Source of the DNA: Gemmatimonadota bacterium
GTDB lineage: Bacteria; Gemmatimonadota; Gemmatimonadetes; Gemmatimonadales; GWC2-71-9
NCBI GenBank assembly: GCA_022566515.1
Contig: JADFIT010000020.1
Span: forward strand, 1 to 34,510
Direction: 5' to 3'
DNA: 34,510 nucleotides
The notes under the pieces are model-generated. The model worked only from the letters and a program-made list of their open reading frames with translations. It was not told the origin of the DNA and did not search any database. Made by a program: the position numbers and the translations under genes. Positions 14,604 to 17,830 of this stretch are shown in pieces (position 1 is the first letter of the stretch; each line of letters starts with the position of its first letter).

Positions 14604-15460
14604 GCACCGGAGGGATTCACACCCAACAGAGTGGAACGCTCGTCGACCGGGCTCTCGAATTCCTCGGAGCCGGCCCCGCCGATAGTATCTCGCTAGCCCG
14701 CGACGTCCTCGGAGTACCGGCCGCCACGCCGCTCATCGCCGATCGATTGGCTGCCGCCCTGCTGGGATCAGACCCCCGAGTGCGGCGCCGGGTGGACTCC
14801 CGTTGGGAGTTGGTTCGGGAGGTGGTGGGCTCTCCACGCCTGGTCGACTGCGCGTTCGCCGTGGTCGATGTCGAGACGACGGGGACGAGCCCCTTACGCG
14901 GTGACCGCGTCATCGAGATTGCCGTAGCGGTACTTTCCGGCGGCGCGGTGGGAGTGGTCCTCGATACGTTGGTCAATCCCGAGCGGCAAATCCCCCGGGT
15001 AGTTACGGGCATCACCCGGATCGCCTATGACGATGTGCGCGACAAGCCCGTCTTTGGGGAGATCGCCGATCAGGTTGTTGACGCTCTCGCCGGCCGGATC
15101 TTCGTGGCCCACAACATGCGGTTTGATTGGTCGTTCGTATCGAATGAAATCCGTCGCACACTCCACCTGGCTCTCGACGGACCTCGGCTCTGCACCGTCA
15201 GGCTGGCCCGGCGTCTCCTTCCGGGTCTCCGGTCCCGCAATCTAGACAGTGTTGCGCAGTATTTCGGCGTCGAAATTGAGAATCGACACCGTGCGGCCGG
15301 CGACGCCACCGCCACCGCGTGGATCCTCTCCCGTCTCCTGGACCTGGCTGCCGAGAGGGGAATCGACACGCTTCGCGAACTCGAGGAACTAACTCGCCGC
15401 GCCAAGCGAAAGAAACGCAAGAAGCTGAGGGCGCTTCCCGCGCCCATGGAGGAGGCATGA
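14600..15460 (+). CDS. DnaQ-like DEDDh 3'-5' exonuclease with N-terminal winged-helix-like extension
   Basis: FAVVDVETTG (ExoI), VAHNMRFDWSFV (ExoII), HRAAGDATATAWI (ExoIII). About 75-aa N-terminal extension and a basic tail. TTGA overlap with arcA. Confidence 0.88.
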   Translation: MSTGGIHTQQSGTLVDRALEFLGAGPADSISLARDVLGVPAATPLIADRLAAALLGSDPRVRRRVDSRWELVREVVGSPRLVDCAFAVVDVETTGTSPLRGDRVIEIAVAVLSGGAVGVVLDTLVNPERQIPRVVTGITRIAYDDVRDKPVFGEIADQVVDALAGRIFVAHNMRFDWSFVSNEIRRTLHLALDGPRLCTVRLARRLLPGLRSRNLDSVAQYFGVEIENRHRAAGDATATAWILSRLLDLAAERGIDTLRELEELTRRAKRKKRKKLRALPAPMEEA

Positions 15461-16341
15461 GTCTGGTCACGACGTTCCGGGTCGGCGGCCTCACCTGCCA
15501 CACCTTGGAGGGCGGCCGCCAGCGGCTCGACGGCGGGGCGATGTTCGGCGTGGTTCCCAAGCCGCTCTGGAGCCGCCGCATCGCCGCGGACGACAAGAAC
15601 CGGATTCCCCTCGCCCTCCGCTGCCTCCTCGTGGAACACGACGACGGCCTCCTGCTCATAGACACGGGGATCGGCAACAAGGAATCCGAGAAATTCCGTG
15701 ACATCTACGGTGTGGAGAACACTGGGACGGCCGGACCCACCCAGCTGGACGATGCTCTTGCGGAAATAGGCTTCGCGGCGGCCGACGTGCGCTACGTGGT
15801 CAACACTCATCTGCATTTTGACCATGCCGGCGGCAACACGTTCCTGCCCGGCGATGCCCCACCGGAAGCTGAGGGCCGGGTGGCGTTTCCCAACGCGACG
15901 TACGTAGTGCAGGCGGCTGACCTCGAATTCGGGATGCAGGGTAACGAGCGGATCGCCGCGAGCTATCTCTCCAGGAACTTCGCCCCTGTGGTGGCCGCCG
16001 GCCTCTGGAGATTGCTGCATGGTGACGAGGAGGTCGTTCCGGGAGTTCAGGCGGTGCTCACCCCGGGACACGTCCCCCATCACCAGTCCATCTTGATCTC
16101 CGATGCCGGAGAAACCGCGTGCTTTCTGGGGGACCTGGTGCCCACGACCGCGCACCTGCCGCTGCCGTGGATCATGGGGTACGACCTGGAGCCGTTGGTG
16201 ACGTTGGAGAACAAGAGACGGCTTCTCACGCAAGCCGAGGCCGAGGGGTGGATCCTGGTATTCGAGCACGATCCGGAGCGCGGGCTGGGGCGGGTGGTCA
16301 GGGAAGGTAAGTCCTTTGGATTTCAAGCATTCGAGAGTTGA
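15457..16341 (+). CDS. MBL-fold metallohydrolase
   Basis: LLIDTGIGN, NTHLHFDHAGGNT, VLTPGHVPHHQSI, FLGDLVPTTAH. ATGA overlap supports start 15457. Confidence 0.88.
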   Translation: MSLVTTFRVGGLTCHTLEGGRQRLDGGAMFGVVPKPLWSRRIAADDKNRIPLALRCLLVEHDDGLLLIDTGIGNKESEKFRDIYGVENTGTAGPTQLDDALAEIGFAAADVRYVVNTHLHFDHAGGNTFLPGDAPPEAEGRVAFPNATYVVQAADLEFGMQGNERIAASYLSRNFAPVVAAGLWRLLHGDEEVVPGVQAVLTPGHVPHHQSILISDAGETACFLGDLVPTTAHLPLPWIMGYDLEPLVTLENKRRLLTQAEAEGWILVFEHDPERGLGRVVREGKSFGFQAFES

Positions 16342-16366
16342 CACTCCCACTGGGTTGAGGTAGGTT
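16338..16366 (+). promoter_or_regulatory. Putative promoter of infC operon (TTGACA-N17-TAGGTT)
   Basis: Perfect -35 TTGACA at 16338-16343, 17-nt spacer, TAGGTT at 16361-16366; same layout as the rex promoter candidate. Confidence 0.5.
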
Positions 16367-16372
16367 CGTTTC

Positions 16373-16550
16373 CACAATGAGCGAAGCAAGCGCTGAGGCG
16401 CTTCACCCTTTTAGCCGCCGATAGGCGAGCGTTCAGGGTTCCAATGACGTAGCCGGGCCGCATGGATTCCCGGCGTGGCGGCGGATTCCCTGGAACAGGG
16501 ATCCGTTTTTTTTTGGGAAAGATTTGGGATGACACCAGGAGGTAGCTTCA
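16373..16550 (+). promoter_or_regulatory. Structured 5' leader of infC operon, candidate attenuator
   Basis: Two copies of GGATTCCC (16464-16471, 16483-16490) and two of CAGGG[T/A]TCC (16434-16442, 16496-16504) that can pair alternatively, followed by a T9 tract and then AGGAGG at 16537-16542. Confidence 0.55.
16482..16514 (+). terminator. Rho-independent terminator or attenuator ahead of infC
   Basis: CGGATTCCCTG-GAA-CAGGGATCCG followed by TTTTTTTTT; 10-bp stem with one bulged nt. Confidence 0.85.
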
Positions 16551-17087
16551 CTGGCATACCAGAATAGGCAAGCACCACAGCGCGAACCCCGCACACGTGT
16601 GAACAGCCAGATTCGCATCAGCCCCGTGAGGGTGATTGCCGACGGGGGTGATCAGCTTGGTGTGATGCCGGTGGAAGAAGCGTTGAAAGAAGCTGTTGAG
16701 CGGGGGTTGGATCTCGTAGAGGTTGCCCCGACGGCCCGCCCACCCGTGGTCAAGATCATGGATTACGGGAAGTACCGTTACGAGCAAGACAAGGCAGCCA
16801 AAGCGGCGAAGAAAAAACAGCACGTGATTCACATGAAGGAGGTCAAGTTCAGGCCGGGCATCAGCATACACGACTTCGATTTCAAGGTGCGACACGCGCG
16901 GGTGTTTCTTGGGCAGGGCAACAAGGTGAAGCTCACCATGATGTTCCGGGGACGGCAAGTCACGCACCCCGAGTTGGGTCAGGAGGTGTTGGCGCGGGTT
17001 CTGGAGGAATTGCAGGACCTTGCCAAGGTGGAGGTACAGCCGAAGCTCGAGGGCCGCAACATGACGATGGTGCTGGCGCCGAAATAG
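16551..17087 (+). CDS. infC: Translation initiation factor IF-3, likely CTG start
   Basis: IRISPVRVIADGGDQLGVMPVEEAL, VEVAPTARPPVVKIMDYGKYRYEQ, MMFRGRQVTHPELG, EGRNMTMVLAPK. AGGAGG 8 nt upstream of in-frame CTG 16551; the listed ORF start GTG 16599 lacks an SD. Confidence 0.85.
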   Translation: MAYQNRQAPQREPRTRVNSQIRISPVRVIADGGDQLGVMPVEEALKEAVERGLDLVEVAPTARPPVVKIMDYGKYRYEQDKAAKAAKKKQHVIHMKEVKFRPGISIHDFDFKVRHARVFLGQGNKVKLTMMFRGRQVTHPELGQEVLARVLEELQDLAKVEVQPKLEGRNMTMVLAPK

Positions 17088-17183: not shown

Positions 17184-17378
17184 ATGCCTAAAATGAAAAC
17201 CAAGCGATCGGCCGCGAAGCGCTTCAAGGTCACGGGCACCGGCAAGATTACCAGGCGTAGGGCGTTCAAGAGCCACCTTCTCACAAAGAAACATCCGAAG
17301 CGGAAGCGCCGTCTTCGTCAGGGGACCGTCATGTCCCCCGCCGACCAGCCACGGATTCGCAAACTGCTCGGCTTGTAG
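17184..17378 (+). CDS. rpmI: 50S ribosomal protein L35
   Basis: [47 protein letters not shown] upstream. Confidence 0.97.
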
Positions 17379-17385
17379 GGGGAGC

Positions 17386-17739
17386 ATGCCAAGAGTCAAG
17401 GACCGTGTTGCCCATCTGAAACGCAAGAAAAAGATTATGCGCGCCGCAAAGGGTGCACGCGGCGGCCGGAGTAAGCTGTACAAAACGGCGAAAGAGAACG
17501 TCGAGCGCGGACTGAGGTATGCCTACCGCGATCGTCGTCGAAAGAAACGTGACTTTCGTCGCTTGTGGATTGTCCGTATCAACGCCGGGGCCAGGTTGCA
17601 CGAACTGTCGTACAGCCGGTTTATGGCGGGTCTCAAACGGGCCGGTGTGGAGGTCAATCGGAAACTCCTCGCCGATTTGGCTGTGCGAGACCCTGGAGCT
17701 TTCGGCGCACTGGCAGAGGTCGCAAAAAAGAGTCTGTAA
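17386..17739 (+). CDS. rplT: 50S ribosomal protein L20
   Basis: [37 protein letters not shown]...[39 protein letters not shown]. Confidence 0.97.
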
Positions 17740-17760
17740 CCGACGCCAGTTGCAGTACTC

Positions 17761-17814
17761 GTGCCGTTCCAGCTCGTTTTCGCGAACGCGAACGTAATGG
17801 GATTGGAACGGCAC
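17761..17814. repeat. 11-bp perfect inverted repeat between rplT and pheS
   Basis: GTGCCGTTCCA (17761-17771) ... TGGAACGGCAC (17804-17814); internal TTCGCGAACGCGAA. No T tract follows. Confidence 0.85.
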
Positions 17815-17830
17815 TCGTCCACGGACACAC

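Follow-up and report, generated by a model that had tools for sequence, protein, structure and literature searches.

A candidate L20-type transcription attenuator upstream of infC-rpmI-rplT in a Gemmatimonadota bacterium

Genes at the locus

The window (the whole stretch of DNA analyzed, 34,510 nucleotides) belongs to a Gemmatimonadota MAG of 3.6 Mb in 241 contigs and carries infC, rpmI, rplT, pheS, and pheT in that order, with a gene for an MBL-fold, lactonase-like protein 5′ of the operon. By name, its infC relatives are Gemmatimonadales and Gemmatimonadetes MAGs. The first three genes of the operon were assigned as follows.

16551 to 17087, plus strand: infC (IF3; TIGR00168, 222 bits), likely start codon CUG at 16551 behind AGGAGGT
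17184 to 17378, plus strand: rpmI (L35; TIGR00001)
17386 to 17739, plus strand: rplT (L20, the presumed ligand; TIGR01032, PF00453)

The product of the MBL-fold gene (15460-16341) resembles YtnP-type lactonases, scoring below the cut-off of the YtnP model, and the gene precedes infC in many relatives within the order. The start region of infC (16538-16553) holds an in-frame CTG, ATT, ATC, or ATA codon, never ATG, in 66 relatives, two GTG calls in this tally looking artefactual; such a pattern would be expected from autoregulation of IF3 translation by way of rare start codons. Between rplT and pheS lies a long inverted repeat (GTGCCGTTCCAG ... TGGAACGGCAC, 17760-17816), possibly a separate control or processing site, and an RNase Y gene is present 3′ of the operon within the window.

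Leader anatomy and conservation

The leader (about 16373-16514) is made up of an AAG-hairpin (H1), a junction C, a helix H2 (ACCCU/AGGGU), and an intrinsic terminator, with the following elements.

16338 to 16366, plus strand: promoter candidate, from sequence only, TTGACA (16338-16343), 17 nt, TAGGTT (16361-16366)
16384 to 16387, plus strand: junction AAGC, its AAG unpaired and 5′ of H1 (equivalent to the "AA dimer" at L20 sites), from conservation and the RF00558 consensus
16388 to 16403, plus strand: H1 hairpin AAGCGC-UGAG-GCGCUU, from covariation
16404 to 16409, plus strand: junction C (16404) and H2 5′ strand ACCCU, which holds the two successive C-G pairs known from L20 sites; RF00558 consensus CgCCU
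16414 to 16430, plus strand: H2 inner helix GCCGCC-GAUA-GGCG-A-GC with a single bulged A on the 3′ side, from the MFE fold
16435 to 16439, plus strand: H2 3′ strand AGGGU, pairing with 16405-16409, from the fold
16434 to 16442, plus strand: candidate antiterminator strand CAGGGUUCC, overlapping the H2 3′ strand, with 16483-16492 as alternative partner in place of H2
16452 to 16475, plus strand: H3, a variable hairpin containing a second GGATTCCC, from the MFE fold, its sequence not conserved in congeners
16482 to 16514, plus strand: intrinsic terminator CGGAUUCCCUG-GAA-CAGGGAUCCG-U9, from sequence, terminator scan, and fold

The promoter candidate overlaps the stop codon of the MBL-fold gene (TGA, 16339-16341), as an earlier note on this DNA had claimed, and from its position a transcription start near 16373 would be expected. 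It was not listed by a consensus promoter scan of the window because TAGGTT fits only three of the six positions of the scanner's consensus. Weak by consensus, it is conserved: 47 of 66 Gemmatimonadota loci have a comparable TTGAC(A)-N16-18-TAnnnT site 7 to 29 nt 5′ of the leader core, a tally that includes two loci with CATCTT instead of TAnnnT. The crude MBL motif is missing upstream at 23 of these 66 loci; leader and terminator are kept there, and 16 of the 23 keep the promoter too.

A common core was present in three congeners and more than 50 other Gemmatimonadota leaders; read 5′ to 3′, AAG and one further base precede a hairpin, after which come C, ACC(C), another, irregular helix, GG(N)GU, a hairpin that varies, and a terminator. 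AAG was found in 66/66 Gemmatimonadota rows and 9/9 rows of other phyla, at the same place as the AAG of the RF00558 consensus, and 66/66 Gemmatimonadota rows also had the C of the junction and the CC in H2; the invariance of AAG, C, and CC is partly due to selection, since the rows were picked by their match to a model that prefers these bases. GG(N)GU or similar stood at the H2 3′ strand in 64 of 66 rows, and the H2 closing helix appeared in the MFE fold of 55 of 63 cores. The RF00558 consensus likewise has a one-nucleotide bulge on the 3′ side of H2.

Every sequence element named in the earlier note is present. The hairpin that it pointed out at 16388-16403 is real and covaries strongly. 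Aligning the leader across related genomes, a check proposed at the same time, gave two-sided compensatory changes at all six pairs of H1, with 96.2% of cells paired in a 75-sequence alignment that was fitted to the model and hence leans towards the structure; an unfitted MAFFT alignment agrees for H1. The covariation score for H1 and H2 together was 0.578, versus 0.203 for shuffled and at most 0.157 for slid controls, the signal being carried by H1. The closing pairs of H2 are nearly invariant and are therefore uninformative about pairing. The fold of the whole leader was mildly better than that of shuffles (z of -1.77), so the evidence is comparative, not thermodynamic. A 15-codon ORF proposed from ATG 16377 was rejected because its ATG is absent in all three congeners and because it overlaps H1/H2.

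Terminator and competing pairing

The terminator, described earlier as CGGATTCCCTG-GAA-CAGGGATCCG-T9, is real: of 75 relatives in the alignment, 72 have an intrinsic terminator at the corresponding position, mostly 25 to 75 nt after H2. The upstream CAGGGTTCC (16434-16442), put forward as a partner of the terminator arm, is present and can pair with 16483-16492 (5 plus 2-3 bp with an internal loop), and the antiterminator shows little compensatory change across relatives. In the proposed arm order B1-A1-A2-B2, the B1 arm CAGGGTTCC is itself the 3′ strand of H2, the helix that L20 would be expected to stabilise. The switch is therefore restated as a competition between H2 and the antiterminator, in which formation of H2 leads to the terminator. 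The second GGATTCCC (16464-16471), claimed as an additional partner, lies in the variable hairpin and is absent from congener leaders; it was dropped as a conserved partner since it is not conserved even within the genus.

Constrained folding of transcripts with 3′ ends at 16492, 16495, and 16500 gave -43.4, -46.4, and -49.0 kcal/mol for the antiterminator state versus -44.2, -47.7, and -49.7 kcal/mol for the H2 fold, the two differing by only about 1 kcal/mol, and once the full terminator was transcribed the state with H2 and terminator was ahead by 6 kcal/mol. Across relatives, pairing between the H2 3′ strand and the terminator arm averaged -12.0 versus -8.3 kcal/mol for shuffled sequences. 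Own-genome antiterminator pairings had a modest advantage over swapped ones (mean rank 0.36; the group-swap test was weak), and the best partner of the terminator arm lay within 8 nt of the H2 3′ strand in 25 of 63 loci. Mutually exclusive pairing of the H2 3′ strand and the terminator 5′ arm is thus plausible, with moderate comparative support, and we infer the details of the switch, since complementarity exceeds that of shuffles, own-genome specificity is modest, and the best partner is often elsewhere.

Relation to RF00558 and distribution

An Rfam RF00558 (L20_leader) search of the leader, also suggested in the earlier note, left the window undetected both at the gathering cut-off (58.7 bits) and at E ≤ 10, and 0 of 61 relatives scored above the cut-off; three sub-threshold RF00558 matches (family f2) fall exactly before infC. 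Other Rfam families were rejected for the leader, the matches being chance matches only. The RF00558 consensus reads AAGaAGAAGC-ACCC-GCUUCU-C-gCCUua...CAGGcuu, and the corresponding window sequence is AAGCAAGCGC-UGAG-GCGCUU-C-ACCCUu...CAGGGUU.

R1, a covariance model derived solely from leaders of Gemmatimonadota, matched just before infC, on the coding strand, in Actinomycetota, Bacillota, one Acidobacteriota, and further bacteria. R1 and RF00558 matched at one and the same site, the R1 match beginning 3 nt inside the RF00558 match, in L059, G132, G133, G136, G142, and G147; the five G genomes include Actinomycetota and Bacillota, and the 3-nt offset is the one predicted by the consensus sequences. 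When the whole genomes of 101 Gemmatimonadota were searched, 52 had an R1 match below E 1e-5 directly upstream of infC on the same strand, and the sole other match below that value belonged to G114, which has a second copy at the extreme end of a different contig. Adding weaker R1 matches gave 61 of 98 infC-bearing Gemmatimonadota genomes. No infC-adjacent R1 match was found in 5 of 22 sampled same-family genomes or in the deepest sampled family (f9). One same-family genome (L013) has infC without the leader, the region there leading out of the MBL gene and into an inverted repeat. Among 41 Actinomycetota genomes (the phylum of L065), the seven best genome matches all adjoin infC.

A model-free signature (AAGN, a perfect hairpin of 5 to 8 bp, and C-R-CC, at most 320 nt before infC) was found in 68 of 75 Gemmatimonadota loci, a count that includes some genomes twice, in 12 of 13 Bacillota, 15 of 19 Actinomycetota, and 1 of 23 others, with an expectation of 0.006 per locus. 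The Actinomycetota counts are the independent ones, because the signature was derived from Gemmatimonadota leaders and RF00558. The leader is outside RF00558 as now modelled, yet it has the architecture and the tested marks of the class, to which it is connected through intermediates.

Interpretation as an L20-type leader

The leader is best read as a divergent L20-type ribosomal leader acting by transcription attenuation, to which we assign a probability of about 0.85. The earlier guess at L20 is well supported by the H1-C-H2-terminator architecture and the junction nucleotides common to RF00558, and by both models matching the same infC leaders at a constant 3-nt offset. L20 leaders have been described as bearing two rRNA-like marks, an AA dimer plus two G-C pairs in succession (PMC7247131), and both marks are present here and near-invariant. 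Direct comparison of the leader with the organism's own 23S rRNA gave short chance matches only, and no sequence alignment of the 23S L20 site with the leader could be obtained, so the case for rRNA mimicry depends on the marks described in the literature.

The L20 protein of B. subtilis binds at the junction of H1 and H2 and makes the terminator more stable (PMC6097659, PMC10931766). By the proposed mechanism, RNA polymerase would start near 16373, and H1 and H2 would fold first; the junction between them, made up of AAG, C, and two C-G pairs in H2, would mimic the L20 site on 23S rRNA. With L20 in excess of free rRNA, the protein would bind and keep H1/H2 together, the terminator (16482-16514) would form, and transcription of infC-rpmI-rplT(-pheST) would stop in the cell. 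With L20 scarce, the H2 3′ strand CAGGGUUCC may instead pair with the terminator 5′ arm GGAUUCCCUG, which would block the terminator and allow the operon to be read.

The arrangement is like that of the B. subtilis L20-interacting RNA and RF00558, which lie 5′ of infC-rpmI-rplT and consist of AAG 5′ of H1, C, H2, an optional H3, and a terminator, and the junction layout at which L20 binds in B. subtilis (PMC6097659) is the same. It differs in that H1 and H2 of the window are G+C-rich, H2 closes with ACCC/GG(N)GU, the distal terminator and antiterminator sequences are different, and the host is a member of Gemmatimonadota. In Deltaproteobacteria, an L20 leader candidate (Eckert and Weinberg 2020, PMC7247131) likewise combines an AA dimer with two successive G-C pairs, which were proposed as 23S rRNA mimics, but it was reported as another structural scaffold. 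The translational operators for L20 that lie within the infC-rpmI-rplT mRNA of E. coli share the ligand and the principle of rRNA mimicry (PMC10931766), but they control rpmI-rplT and not infC, use a long-range pseudoknot and an irregular hairpin, and act on translation. The B. subtilis rplJL leader, which responds to L10(L12)4, is likewise an example of attenuation driven by a ribosomal protein through a competing terminator and antiterminator (PMC4538822), with another protein, a kink-turn based RNA, and another operon.

Three other explanations were weighed. The terminator lies 3′ of the MBL-fold gene on the same strand, and the promoter overlaps the MBL stop, so the terminator might merely end the MBL-fold transcript, with the rest of the leader incidental. 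This is very improbable, as leader, promoter, and terminator persist at loci without the crude MBL motif, and H1 covariation and an invariant junction would be superfluous for a simple terminator. The operon also encodes IF3, L35, and PheST, and since L20 binding here is a prediction, an attenuator responding to another protein or ligand (e.g., IF3, L35, or a signal for pheST) deserves consideration. Its register and junction are nonetheless those of the L20 leader model, and its AA dimer and two G-C pairs fit the described L20 rRNA mimicry (PMC7247131). T-box control was rejected as the window has no RF00230 match, and control by a Phe leader peptide was rejected as the congener leaders have no conserved Phe-rich peptide; a ligand other than L20 is accordingly considered improbable.

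The remaining alternative accepts L20 binding but places control in H1/H2 stabilisation or in mRNA processing, with no real antiterminator. The weak covariation of the antiterminator is in keeping with it, as is the RNase Y gene encoded downstream. It is nonetheless unlikely given that a strong terminator is found nearly everywhere after H2, that complementarity between the H2 3′ strand and the terminator arm exceeds that of shuffles, and that the alternative folds of the window are near-isoenergetic. The L20-type attenuator therefore remains the preferred reading.

Range of the element

The B. subtilis-type L20 leader has been described as narrowly distributed, being assigned to Firmicutes alone (PMC6097659) or to both Firmicutes and Thermotogales, with the advice that lineages with apparently missing motifs be re-examined (PMC3766115), and ribosomal leaders that span phyla have been called unusual (PMC7247131). 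A search of the literature turned up no paper dealing with an infC leader from Gemmatimonadota. What is new is the range, with the element placed before infC across Gemmatimonadota and in many Actinomycetota; given its recurrence there, this control RNA, so far described chiefly from Firmicutes, appears to be far more widely distributed. We give an even chance to the view that the L20 attenuator is an old element held by Bacillota, Actinomycetota, and Gemmatimonadota through common inheritance, most instances of which are missed by public models. If so, it would belong to the small set of ribosomal-protein leaders found across several phyla. The shared H1/H2 junction makes common descent versus repeated rRNA mimicry directly testable, and the finding also provides an improved model for annotation.

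Actinomycetota infC leaders with the L20-leader signature were seen in L065, L074, L083, L104, L064, L069, L077, L081, L095, and L098, and the Actinomycetota leaders searched with RF00558 all scored below the cut-off. In M. tuberculosis, infC has an abundant 326-nt 5′ UTR with a high UTR:CDS ratio (PMC3207917).
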